The notes under the pieces were generated by a model. It was not told the DNA's origin. It made no database searches and worked only from the letters and a program-made list of their open reading frames with translations. Of a stretch of DNA of 31,517 bases, positions 2,910-31,517 are shown piece by piece. Position numbers and translations under genes: made by a program. This stretch comes from a virus, in IMG/VR virus record IMGVR_UViG_3300007344_000134, positions 1-31,517 of that record, one strand, 5' to 3'. Positions within the stretch are counted from its first letter, which is position 1; each line of letters starts with the position of its first letter.

Positions 2910-3004
2910 GCATGACACGCATAGGTAAATATGAACTGATCTCCTATCCGTAGCATCTCTGCGTGGTATGCACGGACAACATCGAAGAGGCCGCGAAGGA
3001 ATAA
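2906..3004 (+). pseudogene. Short frame interrupted by an in-frame TAG (15 + 16 codons)
   Basis: An ATG at 2906 overlaps the previous stop (ATGA). The frame runs 15 codons (MSMTRIGKYELISYP), meets TAG at 2951, and continues in the same frame for 16 codons (HLCVVCTDNIEEAAKE) to TAA at 3002. The continuation looks protein-like, with a CVVC pair and a charged helix. The full frame could be a small protein disrupted by a point mutation, a readthrough product, or chance. See the finding on this site. Confidence 0.3.
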
Positions 3005-3470
3005 AACCCTATCGGGGCCTTCCTCTTTAGCCCACAATGCAACAAGCAAGAAAAAAATTTTTCGTGCAGTCTAAATCCAATTTTTAGACGACCCTAAACC
3101 CAAAACACCCCCACCCATAAAACCCACACAAGGAAACCCATTGACAAGAACCAACTACAAGGAAGCCCTAACAGAGAATAACAAAAAGAAAAACCCCAGA
3201 GGAAAAAAGCGCAAAGGAAAACCCTGAAAGGAAAACCTCGATGGGGAATACTCTACGGGGAACTATACCCCCCATCCGCGTTCCCCGTCCTCGCCCCAAG
3301 ATGCCCCCCGTCTCGGTTCCCGCTCGGGGGCCCCTACGGTTTCCCGCTCCGGGCCTCGCTGTCTGGCCCACCTTCGCGGGCATCCTTTGCAGGTGCCCTT
3401 TCCTTGCGTCCCTTGCTGTGATACCTGAACGGGATACCTGAAAGGGGTAGCGGTGTTAGTGGTGAATGAA
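3005..3470. other. Gene-free, strongly skewed left arm of the palindrome locus
   Basis: No credible gene. From 3100 to 3240 the + strand is purine- and A-rich with repeated GGAAA; from 3280 to 3430 it is very C-rich. A 10-base direct repeat GATACCTGAA occurs near 3420 and 3433. An open frame at 3241-3441 is Pro/Arg-rich and low complexity, which I read as a by-product of composition. Two 9-mers here (CGCCCCAAG at 3292, GGTTTCCCG at 3338) return inverted at 4324 and 4288. A hairpin at about 2985-3035 (GAGGCC against GGCCTT) could be a weak terminator for the upstream genes. Confidence 0.5.
3069..3089. repeat. Outer inverted repeat, left (GTCTAAA/TTTAGAC)
   Basis: GTCTAAA at 3069-3075 and TTTAGAC at 3083-3089 are perfect inverted copies separated by 7 bases. 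The same half-sites occur in opposite order at 4541-4556. The two sites bracket the ribbon-helix-helix locus about equally far from its centre, which suggests a protein-binding site or boundary element. Confidence 0.6.
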
Positions 3471-3498
3471 AGTATATACGCTATATAGAGTATATACG
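3471..3498. repeat. AT-rich palindromic repeat R1
   Basis: The 28-base unit contains GTATATAC, CTATATAG and GTATATAC in succession, each self-complementary. It is the first of three units whose starts are exactly 54 bases apart (3471, 3525, 3579). It looks like an operator or iteron for a small dimeric DNA-binding protein. Confidence 0.75.
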
Positions 3499-3524
3499 CA
3501 AGCAAGGAACAATAACCTGTCTAT

Positions 3525-3552
3525 TGTATATATTCTATATAGTGTATATACG
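3525..3552. repeat. AT-rich palindromic repeat R2
   Basis: Second 28-base unit, aligned with R1 without gaps: GTATATAT, then CTATATAG, then GTATATAC. Only a few positions differ, mostly at the junctions between the small palindromes. It lies one 54-base period downstream of R1. Confidence 0.75.
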
Positions 3553-3578
3553 GAACGCATGAGAGTAAAGCTGTTTGA

Positions 3579-3606
3579 AGTATATATTCTATATAGAATA
3601 TATATT
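3579..3606. repeat. AT-rich palindromic repeat R3, overlapping the promoter of the regulator gene
   Basis: Third unit, again 54 bases on. Positions 3581-3604 form a perfect 24-bp palindrome centred on CTATATAG. Its right end runs into the -7 box TATATTTG (3601-3608) of the downstream gene, so a protein bound here would block that promoter. This fits autoregulation by the ribbon-helix-helix protein. Confidence 0.75.
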
Positions 3607-3608
3607 TG
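3601..3608 (+). promoter_or_regulatory. Candidate -7 box of the ribbon-helix-helix gene
   Basis: TATATTTG fits TAnnTTTG. The nearest TTG (3575-3577) is 23 bases upstream, longer than the usual 19-20, so the promoter may be weak or need help. It overlaps palindrome R3. The predicted start would give a leader of about 20 bases to the ATG at 3635. Confidence 0.5.
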
Positions 3609-3634
3609 CAGCCCTAACTAAAACAGTAGAACAG

Positions 3635-4066
3635 ATGCCGAGGATGTTGATAGACTTGACGGAAAAAGAAGCGCAGGAACTGAAAGAGCTTGCAACGTTG
3701 CACGGCCACAAGGTGAAACCCTTTGTGGAGTATATCGTCAGGATGCAAATAGGAACACTGCCAGCACCCACGGTTGCGCCCCTTGCCCTGAGCCCCGCAC
3801 AGGATACCGAACAAGAAACCCACGAAGAGGAACCGCAACAGGAACAACGCGAAGAACCACGAGCAGGAAGAGCGCCGAGGATGATCAAGCCTTGGATCCC
3901 AAATAAAAACCTTGCAGCATACACGGAAGAGACAGAGCCGGGCAGCGGTATATTCACGGACGGGAAGTCCTTTGCGGTTCAGGTCGGACCGGTAGGACGG
4001 CAGTCGGCACACTTTTTCCAGTTCATTCACGAAGCCGAGGAATTCAAGGGAAACGAGGCCTCTTAA
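3635..4066 (+). CDS. Ribbon-helix-helix DNA-binding protein, candidate partition/origin-binding protein or repressor
   Basis: The 143-residue protein starts with the layout of an Arc/MetJ fold: a strand (PRMLIDL, residues 2-8), helix (TEKEAQELKELATLHG, 9-24) and second helix (KVKPFVEYIVRMQIG, 26-40). A low-complexity acidic linker follows (about 45-80, rich in E, Q and P), then a C-terminal domain (about 82-143) with AVQVGPVG and HFFQFIHEAEEF, which I do not recognise. Upstream in-frame TTG 3575 lies inside the palindromes, so ATG 3635 is used. Palindromic sites lie on both sides, which suggests that it binds them. Known relatives in fold include ParR, Omega and plasmid copy-control proteins; no ParA or ParM partner is visible here. 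Confidence 0.7.
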   Translation: MPRMLIDLTEKEAQELKELATLHGHKVKPFVEYIVRMQIGTLPAPTVAPLALSPAQDTEQETHEEEPQQEQREEPRAGRAPRMIKPWIPNKNLAAYTEETEPGSGIFTDGKSFAVQVGPVGRQSAHFFQFIHEAEEFKGNEAS

Positions 4067-4068
4067 AC

Positions 4069-4090
4069 CCTATATATATGACGTATATAC
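4069..4090. repeat. AT-rich repeat R4 downstream of the regulator gene
   Basis: CTATATATATG followed by ACGTATATAC starts 3 bases after the stop codon. It is a degenerate version of the upstream sites with two TATATA half-sites. Its centre (about 4080) is about 54 bases from that of the next site. Confidence 0.55.
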
Positions 4091-4125
4091 AGCCCGGAAA
4101 TAGAGCTGATAGAGGCCATTGAAAA

Positions 4126-4143
4126 CATATATACAACGTATAG
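4126..4143. repeat. AT-rich repeat R5
   Basis: CATATATACAACGTATAG, a shorter degenerate site about 54 bases after R4, with TATATAC and GTATAG half-sites. Confidence 0.5.
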
Positions 4144-4158
4144 CTTTTATCGGTTCAC

Positions 4159-4179
4159 TGTATATATAGAATATATAGG
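4159..4179. repeat. AT-rich repeat R6
   Basis: TGTATATATAG followed by AATATATAGG, resembling R1-R3 with the middle palindrome shortened. It is about 35 bases after R5, so the 54-base phase is not kept. It sits just before the terminator. Confidence 0.5.
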
Positions 4180-4190
4180 AACACCGCAAC

Positions 4191-4215
4191 AAGGCCCATA
4201 AAACGGGCCTTTTTT
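4191..4215 (+). terminator. Intrinsic terminator of the ribbon-helix-helix gene
   Basis: AAGGCCC (4191-4197) pairs with GGGCCTT (4205-4211) across a 7-base loop ATAAAAC, and the 3' arm merges into a run of six T (4210-4215). A 7-bp GC-rich stem with a T tract is a classic intrinsic terminator. Confidence 0.8.
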
Positions 4216-4540
4216 GTGCCCTGTTATAGGGCATAGGACGGGAACCCGGACAAGGGACAAAGGGGAGGGACCGAGCAGGGGAACGGACGGGAAACCCGCA
4301 CGAGGCAAGGGATACGGGGACTTCTTGGGGCGATCAATTTCCCCAACCGCGGCCCCTTTACCGGCCCTTTCCGGTGTCCTCTTCTACGGGTCTTCCTTTC
4401 TTGCTGTTCCCTTCTCTTGGCTTACCTGTTGGGGTGTTCTTGGTTGTTCCTATGTGTAGGGCATTCATTAAGGTATCTTTCGCGCGCACGGGTGAGGACG
4501 GTGATAAATTTAGGGCAATCTAAAAATTTTAGGTTATTCG

Positions 4541-4556
4541 TTTAGACGGGTCTAAA
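4541..4556. repeat. Outer inverted repeat, right (TTTAGAC/GTCTAAA)
   Basis: TTTAGAC (4541-4547), GG, GTCTAAA (4550-4556): a 16-base palindromic site, the counterpart of 3069-3089 with the half-sites in reverse order. The midpoint of the two sites (about 3814) falls inside the ribbon-helix-helix gene. Confidence 0.6.
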
Positions 4557-4627
4557 TCGGCGTTTAGTTTGCGCGAAATCTTCTTTTTTTTGCTCATCAT
4601 GTCGCACTAAAGAACAAAGAAAGCCCG

Positions 4628-4652
4628 TAAAGTATTCATATTCAGTACTTTA
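4628..4652. promoter_or_regulatory. Candidate operator palindrome upstream of the promoter at 4691
   Basis: TAAAGTA (4628-4634) and TACTTTA (4646-4652) are perfect inverted arms 11 bases apart, ending about 38 bases before the -33 element. The place suits an activator or repressor site. No follower T tract, so not a terminator. Confidence 0.4.
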
Positions 4653-4690: not shown

Positions 4691-4720
4691 TTGTTATTCT
4701 TAAAACAGTGCCTACATTTG
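4691..4720 (+). promoter_or_regulatory. Bacteroidota-type promoter of the accessory gene block
   Basis: TTG (4691-4693), 19 bases, TACATTTG (4713-4720), with TTAAAA in the spacer at the same place as in the promoters at 8712 and 14783. Start predicted near 4726, giving a CA-rich leader of about 45 bases to the ATG at 4771. Confidence 0.8.
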
Positions 4721-8711: not shown

Positions 8712-8741
8712 TTGCATATCTTAAAAGAATAACTACCTTTG
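8712..8741 (+). promoter_or_regulatory. Bacteroidota-type promoter
   Basis: TTG (8712-8714), 19-base spacer with TTAAAA, TACCTTTG (8734-8741). An A/T tract lies upstream (8680-8700). Start predicted near 8747, giving a leader of about 30 bases made almost wholly of CAACCAACAA-type sequence before ATG 8778. Confidence 0.8.
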
Positions 8742-8777
8742 GCAGCACATAACACAACCAACCAACAACCACAAACC

Positions 8778-9026
8778 ATGAAAGCCAACACCTACAAAAT
8801 GAGAGCCGAAGGGGCATGGGACGTTGCCCGCTTCATCGGGGCAACAGCCGGACAGCTCTCAAAATTCAAGATGGAAACCATAGGCCACGGCCCGGACGTG
8901 ACACTTGAATTTACCACCGTTCACTCGCGAGCCAACATTCAGAAAGCTCTTTCAATGTTAGACGATGCTCATGTGATGAGCCAAACATTGGCCCTCAAAC
9001 GGGACTACACAGGCGAGCGCATTTAA
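8778..9026 (+). CDS. Unknown protein (82 aa)
   Basis: ATG 8778 follows CCAACAACCACAAACC; the upstream in-frame TTG (8739) is part of the promoter. A small basic protein with a WDVARFIGATAGQL helix and an IQKALSMLDDAHVMSQTLALK helix. No family recognised. First gene of a new unit. Confidence 0.6.
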   Translation: MKANTYKMRAEGAWDVARFIGATAGQLSKFKMETIGHGPDVTLEFTTVHSRANIQKALSMLDDAHVMSQTLALKRDYTGERI

Positions 9027-9358: not shown

Positions 9359-9378
9359 TGAACCAACAACCACAAACC

Positions 9379-10008
9379 ATGAAAAAGGAAAACTTCGAGA
9401 AACTCATTCAGGCAGTAACAGGCCGTCCTCTTGAGATTATCACAGAGGACAACGAGATCCAACTGCAAACAGAGTATTGCATAGCTCACAGGAACATAGA
9501 GGGCACTGACAACTATGTTCGATTTTATTGGAAAACACCAAAGAAACAAGACAACATCATGCGATCATTCATTACCGCCTTTGCGTCAAAGTACACGCAG
9601 CCGAACCCGGCCAAATACGGACCGAACGACTGGAATCCCGACCGCAAGACATGGGACCAGATGACCGGCAGGGAGCGAACTATGGCCTATTACCACCACA
9701 GGAGCTATATGTACACCAAGGAGCAACTACTCAAACAGGTAGAAGCCAACTTCGGTACACCTCAAATGGGAACCGCCATGATGCGCTACGGTTTCTACCT
9801 TACAGACTACGGGTTTGGAACCTTCGTCTTGTTCGGAGGGCAGCACGTTGAGAAGGCTGTTATGAGGATGCGCGAGTATCTGAAATTGGAAAACATCCCT
9901 TACCGGAACGAGCTTTCGGACGCAAGATGGGTGCTCCGTTTTGTCCTCAACATGGGGCGACCGATACACGAGAAGATCCTGACCAAGTTTAACGCAACAA
10001 TCAATTAA
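9379..10008 (+). CDS. Unknown protein (209 aa)
   Basis: One of the larger proteins of the block. Soluble; features include EKLIQAVTGRPLEIIT near the start, a Trp/Pro-rich middle (YGPNDWNPDRKTWDQMTGRER) and a C-terminal half with QMGTAMMRYGFYLTDYGFG and FGGQHVEKAVMRMREYL. ATG 9379 follows CAACAACCACAAACC; ATG 9358 upstream would only add MNQQPQT from the leader. No family recognised. A short hairpin (10012-10023) follows the stop. Confidence 0.6.
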   Translation: MKKENFEKLIQAVTGRPLEIITEDNEIQLQTEYCIAHRNIEGTDNYVRFYWKTPKKQDNIMRSFITAFASKYTQPNPAKYGPNDWNPDRKTWDQMTGRERTMAYYHHRSYMYTKEQLLKQVEANFGTPQMGTAMMRYGFYLTDYGFGTFVLFGGQHVEKAVMRMREYLKLENIPYRNELSDARWVLRFVLNMGRPIHEKILTKFNATIN

Positions 10009-14782: not shown

Positions 14783-14812
14783 TTGCAGGACTTAAAATAA
14801 GTGTTACCTTTG
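14783..14812 (+). promoter_or_regulatory. Bacteroidota-type promoter of the recombination module
   Basis: TTG (14783-14785), 19 bases containing TTAAAA, TACCTTTG (14805-14812). Near-identical in layout to the 8712 promoter. Start predicted near 14818, leader about 15 bases. Confidence 0.8.
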
Positions 14813-23890: not shown

Positions 23891-24549
23891 ACATGAACTT
23901 CGATGATTTCCTCCGCAAGGAGGCCGACAAGAGTGGATTCCAATGGAATGACGTTTCAGAGTGGACTCCCGAACAGCTCGCCGCAATGTGGCACAAGGCG
24001 GGGCAATCCATCGTGGGGCCGTCCTACAAAGATGTTGACCCGAACCTCACACAAAACCTCGTGAAGTACCTCCTCCGTGATGAGTCCTTCGATGGGAACC
24101 TTGACAGGGGCATTCTGATAATAGGCAACAACGGGACAGGCAAGACCATCTACATGAAGATCCTACTCATGCTCCTCACCTATCTGCACTCCAAGCGGAC
24201 GCCCTCTTACTCAGGGAAACAGATAGAGGCCAATATGAGGCTTCCAGAGGATGAGCAGGGAAGAATAGACGTGCAAAAGGCACTCCTTGCCCCGACATTC
24301 TACTTCGATGATCTCGGGGAGGAGCTTGACAGGGTGATGGTATATGGTACCTATGTGGAACTCGGAAAGGATGTCCTGACACAGCGCTACGAGGAGTTCA
24401 CCTCCAAGGGCTCCCTTACATTCGCCACCTCGAACCTCAACATGAAACAGATAGAGGACAAGTACGGGTATCGAGTGGGAAGCCGCATGCACGAGATGTT
24501 CAATGTGTTCATCCGCAAGGGGGAGGACATGAGAAAAGGATTTGTGTGA
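23887..24549 (+). CDS. dnaC: DnaC-type helicase loader ATPase
   Basis: The 220-residue protein is an AAA+ loader: Walker A GNNGTGKT (80-87), Walker B FYFDDLGEE (138-146), sensor 1 TSNL (181-184) and a candidate arginine finger in YGYRVGSRMHE (194-203). The N-terminal 60 residues are the likely helicase-binding part. It would load the DnaB helicase at the phage origin. The DnaB gene follows after one intervening methyltransferase gene. ATG 23887 overlaps the previous stop, and the stop overlaps the next start (TGATG). Confidence 0.85.
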   Translation: MNMNFDDFLRKEADKSGFQWNDVSEWTPEQLAAMWHKAGQSIVGPSYKDVDPNLTQNLVKYLLRDESFDGNLDRGILIIGNNGTGKTIYMKILLMLLTYLHSKRTPSYSGKQIEANMRLPEDEQGRIDVQKALLAPTFYFDDLGEELDRVMVYGTYVELGKDVLTQRYEEFTSKGSLTFATSNLNMKQIEDKYGYRVGSRMHEMFNVFIRKGEDMRKGFV

Positions 24550-25166
24550 TGAGGGTGCTAAATCTGTATGCCGGTCTTGGAGGAAATAGAAAAGATTGGC
24601 AAGGAGTAAAGGTGACGGCTGTTGAAATGGAGCAGCAGATAGCTGACGCATACAAGCGCCTGTATCCTGATGACGAAGTAATAGTGGGAGACGCTCATAA
24701 ATACCTGAAAGAAAACTTCCGACACTATGACTTCATTTGGAGCTCGCCACCGTGTCAAACTCATAGCAGAATGATGAAAGCCACCCGGCACGATGTCGCA
24801 GATTACCCCGATATGAAACTCTACCAGGAAATCATATTTCTTCAACACTTTTTCAAAGGAAAGTGGGTTGTGGAGAATGTTAAGCCCTACTATGAACCGC
24901 TTATCCGTCCAACCGTCAAAATGGGCAGGCACTACTTTTGGGCAAACTTCACTATTTGGCCCATTAAGATAGGCTCTCCAAAAAAGTTCATTACAGCCGG
25001 GACTACCGAAGAAACACAGGCATTGAAGGATTGGCTGGGCATTCAGTATGATGGCAACATCTACTACAAGAACAATCATTGCCCGGGACAAGTGTTACGA
25101 AACTGCGTCCACCCAAAAGTTGGAAACCACATACTCAATGAATCAACCCGAAACGGACTCTTCTAA
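24549..25166 (+). CDS. C5 cytosine DNA methyltransferase, short form
   Basis: The 205-residue protein has motif I NLYAGLGG (5-12), the catalytic SSPPCQ (65-70, Cys69), the ENV motif (109-111) and the late GN motif in KVGNHIL (190-196). The target-recognition region is very short (the whole protein is about half a typical Dcm enzyme), so specificity may come from few residues or a partner. It is set between loader and helicase, suggesting that methylation of phage DNA is linked to replication, perhaps against host restriction. ATG 24549 follows the loader stop (TGATG); GTG 24546 is an alternative. Confidence 0.75.
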   Translation: MRVLNLYAGLGGNRKDWQGVKVTAVEMEQQIADAYKRLYPDDEVIVGDAHKYLKENFRHYDFIWSSPPCQTHSRMMKATRHDVADYPDMKLYQEIIFLQHFFKGKWVVENVKPYYEPLIRPTVKMGRHYFWANFTIWPIKIGSPKKFITAGTTEETQALKDWLGIQYDGNIYYKNNHCPGQVLRNCVHPKVGNHILNESTRNGLF

Positions 25167-31130: not shown

Positions 31131-31517
31131 GTGGGCAAAATAAATAACTTATATACAGCAGAAGCATTATCATTTATGAAGGAAATGAATGATAACTCTG
31201 TTGACATAATAGTAACATCACCACCGTATAATTTAATGGGGCAATACTCTTGTAAATCACAAATGAACAGAAGTTTTACAAGTAAAAGGCTTGAAGATTG
31301 GTATGATGATAAAATGGATGAAAAAGAATACCAACAATGGCAAAAAGAATGTGTTAGGGAAATGGTTAGAATATGTAAAGGAAGTGTTTTTTACGTGCAT
31401 CAAGTTAGATATGCTTGGGGTAGAAAAAACGAGTTTTACCACCCTATACATTGGTTAAATGAATTTGTTATATGGTCTGAAATAATTTGGAATAGAGGAA
31501 ATGGTATAAGTGCTGCA
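31131..31517 (+). CDS. Beta-class DNA methyltransferase (N4/N6), truncated by the window end
   Basis: The visible 129 residues begin VGKINNLYTAEALSFMKEM (GTG start, TAG two codons upstream) and hold DIIVTSPPYN at 25-34, the motif IV of amino-methyltransferases, then a variable segment and EIIWNRGNG. Motif IV near the N-terminus means the beta order, with the SAM-binding motif I outside the window. It would methylate adenine N6 or cytosine N4. The DNA is strikingly AT-rich against its neighbours, so the gene is likely a recent acquisition. Confidence 0.8.
   Translation, partial: MGKINNLYTAEALSFMKEMNDNSVDIIVTSPPYNLMGQYSCKSQMNRSFTSKRLEDWYDDKMDEKEYQQWQKECVREMVRICKGSVFYVHQVRYAWGRKNEFYHPIHWLNEFVIWSEIIWNRGNGISAA

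Follow-up and report, generated by a model that had tools for sequence, protein, structure and literature searches.

Several described loci place the gene for a DNA-binding protein between two arrays of sites. In pB171 par2 (parC1-parAB-parC2), a type Ib partition system whose ParB is a ribbon-helix-helix (RHH) protein, repeat arrays lie on both sides and the upstream one is at the promoter. The P1 plasmid origin is arranged as incC-repA-incA, with an upstream array that overlaps the promoter and a downstream array that possibly serves copy control, while in the OL-cI-OR region of lambda an autoregulated regulator gene lies between two sets of three operators. Constructs of the pB171 elements parC1, parA, parB and parC2 are described in PMC4270457. 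In the stbA/stbDRs region of R388, stability depends on one DNA-binding protein, which acts on 9-bp repeats arranged in two sets of five around its own promoter, and the ATPase partner of StbA is dispensable for this (PMC3098194). Finally, RedRock and Alma, extrachromosomal mycobacteriophage prophages that lack an integrase, carry a non-coding cis region of about 600 bp together with maintenance genes (PMC7157519).

How genomes are copied, segregated or switched in integrase-less phages of Bacteroidota is largely uncharted, and the locus analyzed here, with defined sites, a candidate protein and clear predictions in about 1.65 kb, is a compact and testable fragment. The window, by which we mean the whole stretch of DNA analyzed, is an IMG/VR virus record of 31,517 bases; it matches positions 3006-34522 of IMGVR_UViG_3300034374_008984 at 100%, so that adding 3005 to a window coordinate gives the coordinate on this full record. 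The full record comprises 73,651 bases and, because an exact 127-base repeat is common to both ends, is very likely a complete circular phage map of about 73.5 kb, encoding a DnaB helicase, a DnaC-like loader, an exonuclease, terminase, portal and very large virion proteins. The host is probably a member of the Bacteroidota, since Shine-Dalgarno-like leaders are scarce (5 of 49 phage genes) and promoters of the form TTG-N19-TAnnTTTG are present, which together make up the Bacteroidota pattern (promoter consensus from PMC6847099). A translation leader of the AACCAACAACCACAAACCATGAA type, nearly identical from gene to gene and lacking a Shine-Dalgarno sequence, recurs in front of many early genes of this phage (window 4740-13130); the stretches 8760-8783 and 9361-9384, for example, are identical over 24 nt. 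Profile searches of the complete 73.6-kb genome found no tyrosine integrase and no ParA-type ATPase (PF13614), each search being positive in 14 of 14 control genomes, and no serine recombinase, for which the search was positive in 10 of 14.

The locus follows lysis-side genes (an M15 peptidase gene of the lysis type lies at 998-1480) and ends just short of an early promoter. Its central gene (3635-4066, plus strand) encodes 143 aa with an RHH-like N-terminal segment, an acidic linker and an orphan C-terminus. As in pB171 par2, a gene for a protein that is here putatively of RHH type lies between repeat arrays, the upstream one at the gene's promoter candidate; however, the phage has no recognised ParA ATPase, its sites are 26-bp TATATA palindromes where those of pB171 are short direct repeats, and its mirror-image arms and TTTAG boxes have no pB171 counterpart. 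The likeness to incC-repA-incA of P1 is that site arrays flank a protein gene and the upstream array overlaps its promoter candidate, but the phage protein is not a Rep by any profile searched and the locus lacks DnaA boxes. With lambda OL-cI-OR the phage would share a regulator gene between two three-site sets, as well as predicted autoregulation and possible looping; unlike lambda, whose regulator is an HTH protein, it has an RHH-like one, lacks divergent early promoters and has much longer arms. In its economy (one putatively binding protein, 9-bp repeats and the protein's own promoter) the locus resembles R388 stbA, to which no sequence similarity was detected and whose repeats surround only the promoter, with no mirror symmetry. 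RedRock and Alma likewise pair a non-coding cis region with the lack of an integrase, although they carry parABS, whereas this phage has neither ParA nor a promoter for a non-coding RNA in its arms. Tested for ParA, a Rep domain, divergent early promoters and sequence similarity, the locus belongs to none of the pB171 par2, P1, lambda and R388 classes.

The arms form an imperfect, non-coding inverted repeat. The left arm (2999-3533, plus strand) aligns colinearly with the reverse complement of the right arm (4127-4643, minus strand; 4643-4127 in the alignment), 340 of 468 columns being identical (73%) with 54 gaps. This alignment was made independently of the coordinates in a preliminary description, which had claimed a nested, nearly symmetric locus at 3069-4556; that extent is too small, as the arms reach 2999 and 4643. 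The score of 146 compares with 71.9 +/- 10.8 in 2000 shuffles that preserve the composition of each 30-base block, none of which reaches 146, while the same arms in other orientations score 45 (direct), 41 (reverse-only) and 55 (complement-only), and in a whole-genome scan for inverted pairs the locus ranks first (139 versus a mean of 43 +/- 11). Self-complementarity within the arms was considered as the source of the signal and rejected, z being 1.1 and 0.7 within arms versus 5.3 for the left-right inverted comparison. Taken together, the shuffles, the other orientations, the genome scan and the weak within-arm self-complementarity establish a real mirror symmetry of about 530 bp per arm. Every element named in the preliminary description was recovered, and the claimed symmetry is well beyond chance, but it is not exact, because small gaps shift the midpoints of the pairs. 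Since many of the gaps are not multiples of three, we read the arms as non-coding and rule out that they encode protein.

Going inward, each arm presents TTTAG boxes, then the conserved blocks AAAGGAAaACC, CGCCCCAAGA and GGTTTCCCG, and then TATATA sites. The inverted 9-mers already noted at 3292 with 4324 and at 3338 with 4288 are indeed exact blocks: CGCCCCAAGA at 3292-3301 forms an exact inverted pair with 4332-4323, and GGTTTCCCG at 3338-3346 (plus strand) is identical at 9 of 9 positions to its partner at 4296-4288. The arm alignment also gives the block CGCCCCAAGAtG at 3292-3303 (plus strand), with its partner at 4332-4321. One could suppose that such arms have no present function and are a decayed inverted duplication, or what is left of a mobile element whose terminal inverted repeats measured about 500 bp. 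The long colinear inverted similarity with its indels and the orphan central gene would suit this supposition. Decay should then be even, however, and the similarity is instead concentrated in blocks (p 0.02); transitions should be in excess and are not (0.31 versus 0.35 in shuffles), although this test is weak because the arm alignment is gap-rich; and the motif families described below are enriched well past what one duplication would yield. Nor were an integrase, a serine recombinase or a second copy of the locus found in the genome, as would be expected of a transposable element, and we consider a relic of this kind improbable. An invertible segment was also considered and rejected, no recombinase of either type having been found in the genome.

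Two families of short sites are concentrated in the locus. The word TATATA occurs 22 times in the genome, 16 of them inside the locus (P about 3e-22), and in an unbiased word scan no other 6-mer cluster of the genome is as dense. Upstream of the central gene lie R1 (3472-3497, 26 bp), R2 (3526-3551, 26 bp) and R3 (3580-3604, 25 bp), each a palindrome of three TATATA at 9-bp spacing, and each following the previous one by 54 bp. Position makes R4 (4070-4093), a degenerate TATATA site 3' of the central gene, the counterpart of R3, the gene lying between the two; R5 (4126-4144), also degenerate, stands in a region that the arm alignment places opposite R2, and R6 (4158-4178), with the sequence TATATATAGAATATATA, is placed opposite R1. 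Of the AT-rich sites in the preliminary description, then, R1-R3 are clear palindromes with a 54-bp period, while R4-R6 are more degenerate and lack that period. The 9-bp spacing of the TATATA repeats would be compatible with binding by putative RHH dimers. TTTAG, in turn, has 12 of its 56 genome copies within the 1.65-kb locus (P about 3e-9). The boxes stand at 3071, 3083 and 3094 on the left and at 4509, 4520, 4528, 4541, 4552 and 4563 on the right, 8-13 bp or about one helical turn apart, and form a left cluster (3069-3098, with GTCTAAA at 3069, TTTAGAC at 3083 and CCCTAAA at 3092) and a right cluster of six (4509-4567). To the R sites and the box clusters we assign no strand. The GTCTAAA/TTTAGAC palindromes that had been reported at 3069-3089 and 4541-4556 are present there and nowhere else in the 73.6-kb genome.

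What could occupy these sites? The central gene had been described as encoding a ribbon-helix-helix protein. Like the RK2 ParD antitoxin, with which its N-terminal 31 residues align, the central protein matches the ParD profile PF09386 over residues 1-31 (E 1.8e-4, 22.3 bits, under the curated cut-off of 27.3), and its sole sequence match in the PDB is RK2 ParD itself (2an7, E 0.18). Unlike RK2 ParD, it is followed by an unrelated remainder of its 143 aa and has no adjacent ParE-like toxin gene, the next gene lying 705 bp away without a Pfam match; no NTPase gene adjoins it either, and profile searches show no Rep domain in its product. A full-length structure model is poor (pLDDT 41). For the N-terminal 50 residues a single-sequence model gives two helices (10-23 and 28-39) and no strand at pLDDT 68, and a fold search with this model returned no PDB match at E <= 0.001 and no RHH. 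On balance the ParD match makes a ribbon-helix-helix N-terminus likely, which keeps the earlier assignment for the N-terminal part at a sub-threshold score and leaves the linker and C-terminus as orphans.

The strongest functional indication comes from the promoter. A Bacteroidota-type candidate for the central gene, TTG-N23-TATATTTG (3575-3608, plus strand; consensus from PMC6847099), consists of TTG at 3575-3577 and a TAnnTTTG element at 3601-3608, the only such element near the gene start, and its N23 spacer exceeds the usual 19-21. R3 lies between these -33 and -7 elements and occupies the spacer, so that the central protein is likely to repress its own gene through R3; because R3 fills the spacer, autorepression is the best-grounded of our functional proposals. 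The earlier interpretation is supported in this respect, with a putative operator inside the gene's own promoter candidate and arrays flanking the gene on both sides. A terminator-like hairpin with a T run (4191-4211, plus strand) lies 3' of the central gene and R6, although such sites are no more numerous in the region than in shuffles. The next gene block, a rightward early one, has a Bacteroidota-type promoter TTG-N19-TACATTTG (4691-4720, plus strand) just outside the right arm. The heptamer CTTAAAA recurs at the same position of the spacer, between TTG and TACnTTTG, in three early-region promoters (4691-4720, 8712-8741 and 14783-14812), which suggests a putative phage-specific class of early promoters.

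A regulator gene between two three-site sets could also be a pure transcription switch in the manner of a lambda-like double operator, a repressor looping between R1-R3 and R4-R6 and acting on its own promoter and on the early promoter at 4691. Three sites in mirror order on each side of the gene, a promoter candidate that contains R3 and an early promoter just beyond the right arm would all fit, and phage repressors of the RHH kind are known, Arc and Mnt among them. The TAnnTTTG elements of the locus are rightward only, however (3601 and 4713), and a scan of the minus strand found no leftward one in or near the left arm, so that the mirrored left arm would have nothing to switch. The putative operator arrays R1-R3 and R4-R6 flank the gene as in a lambda-type immunity region, but the divergent early promoters of such a region were not found at the locus. 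Moreover, about 510 bp separate R6 from the early promoter, which carries no R site, the arms and TTTAG boxes would be left unexplained, and no integrase was found. We regard the switch, the main rival of the hub favored below, as unlikely, though still deserving of weight. More generally, with no leftward promoter found for the mirrored left arm to serve, the symmetry is less likely to be purely transcriptional in origin and more likely to reflect an architectural role, as in a replication origin, copy control or a centromere.

One architectural possibility is a non-coding RNA gene present in two inverted copies, one per arm, as part of an RNA-based origin like those of extrachromosomal mycobacteriophage prophages. 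Each side indeed offers about 450 bp of non-coding, GC-rich and foldable sequence, and RNA-based phage origins of about 600 bp exist (PMC7157519). Yet the arms fold barely better than shuffles (z -1.6, -1.4, -0.4 and -2.1), no TAnnTTTG promoter lies within them on either strand, and no Rfam family matches at its gathering score, the only matches being miRNA-like ones that arise by chance from the palindromes. Because mycobacteriophages have such origins (PMC7157519), we keep this reading at low weight, as a very unlikely one.

If the locus were an origin, one would look for it in the nucleotide skews. The GC-skew minimum, whose position elsewhere the preliminary description had itself named as refuting its reading, is not at the locus but lies elsewhere, at about 49 kb of the full record or locally at about 17 kb. 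The whole-genome minima of AT skew (7705) and keto skew (5551, both full record) flank the locus within about 0.5 kb. At synonymous sites the cumulative GC skew peaks within the central gene (full record 7014) and the keto skew has its minimum next to the locus. Such a polarity is expected at the terminus in most bacteria and would fit an origin less well. This could be taken to mean that the inverted arms are polar and that the locus stops replication, as a terminus or fork trap, or is the site where packaging starts. But the GC component does not reach significance (block-permutation p 0.06), the change point is unconstrained, assemblies break at about 34.4 kb rather than at the locus, and the RHH gene would stay unexplained, and we hold such a terminus or packaging site to be highly improbable. 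Since the bootstrap range of the change point is about 1-17 kb, the skew is proof of neither origin nor terminus. Compared with a theta origin with iterons, the locus lacks the GC-skew minimum, DnaA boxes and a recognised initiator: TTATCCACA is absent from the whole genome and TTWTNCACA from the locus. Compared with type I-III partition systems, it has putative centromere-like site arrays and no ParA (PF13614). The earlier reading as a partition, origin or copy-control locus is partly supported: it keeps the site arrays, the putative operator, the weak RHH match and the searches of the complete genome that found no integrase, serine recombinase or ParA ATPase, and loses the GC-skew minimum.

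Our tentative preference, to which we give somewhat less than an even chance, is that the locus is an autoregulated RHH hub that bridges two mirrored arrays and controls replication or inheritance of the phage genome. In such a cis-acting nucleoprotein hub of the circular-mapping 73.5-kb phage, the lone RHH protein would be expressed from a promoter that has its own site R3 between the -33 and -7 elements, and would repress itself; its dimers would bind cooperatively along the 9-bp TATATA repeats of R1-R3 and occupy R4-R6 3' of the gene as well; and the two arrays would meet across the central gene. The bridged arrays and another factor, bound to the outer TTTAG boxes, could then yield one folded complex, which would control the initiation of replication or the inheritance of the phage genome. 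The inverted arms, the motif enrichment, R3 in the promoter candidate, the ParD-like N-terminus, the lack of integrase, ParA and serine recombinase, the placement of the arms between the lysis-side genes and the early promoter, and the AT and keto minima speak for a hub. Against it stand the GC-skew minimum elsewhere, the change-point range of 1-17 kb, the poor structure models, the Pfam match below its cut-off, the lack of DnaA boxes at the locus, the degenerate R4-R6 without a 54-bp period, and searches that returned no relative showing conservation. A bolder form of the hub, a one-protein, ATPase-free centromere or origin in which a lone RHH-like protein would assemble into a mirror-symmetric complex over the two 500-bp arms and secure, unaided, replication or inheritance of this integrase-less phage, seems to us rather doubtful. 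Should the protein alone bridge the mirrored arrays, the locus would add to the few partition or copy-control systems known to work without a motor ATPase, and it could serve as a cassette for replication or stable maintenance in hosts for which genetic tools are scarce.

Relatives were sought with the RHH protein, the terminase, the portal, DnaB, alignments of terminase and DnaB, and DNA patterns. In viral contigs, genomes and phage and plasmid collections no diverged relative with the central protein or the arms was found. The searches gave identical records, namely the 73.6-kb one and two of 34.6 and 15.7 kb without the locus; the 5-kb fragments L005 and L128, with 49-59% protein identity and also without the locus; and otherwise distant phages. 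The phage and plasmid collections held no protein or DNA match save a 31-residue match to ParD at E 4. A relaxed TATATA pattern also matched other phages, but these matches were rejected as simple AT-rich arrays next to an unrelated gene of 78 aa. In these unrelated phages (L112, L114, L116, L118, L120, L121, L123, L125 and others) a nearly identical palindromic TATATAGTATATA array of about 150 bp stands upstream of the conserved 78-aa gene (MDREITMLEKAIYGDYEI...) and is possibly those phages' own control site.

Some further features of the genome lie away from the locus. The window record ends, and the records of 34.6 and 15.7 kb begin, inside the same 97 bases (full record 34426-34522, window 31421-31517), and assemblies therefore break there; this junction, perhaps a variable one, adjoins an AT-rich methylase region. 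Two N6/N4 methylase genes in opposite orientation flank the portal-capsid block and are linked by an inverted repeat of 71 bp (77%; full record 35491-35561 and 44252-44322). Between the DnaC-like loader and DnaB, at window 24546-25166, lies a short C5 cytosine methylase-like gene whose 206-aa product matches only the N-terminal third of the family.
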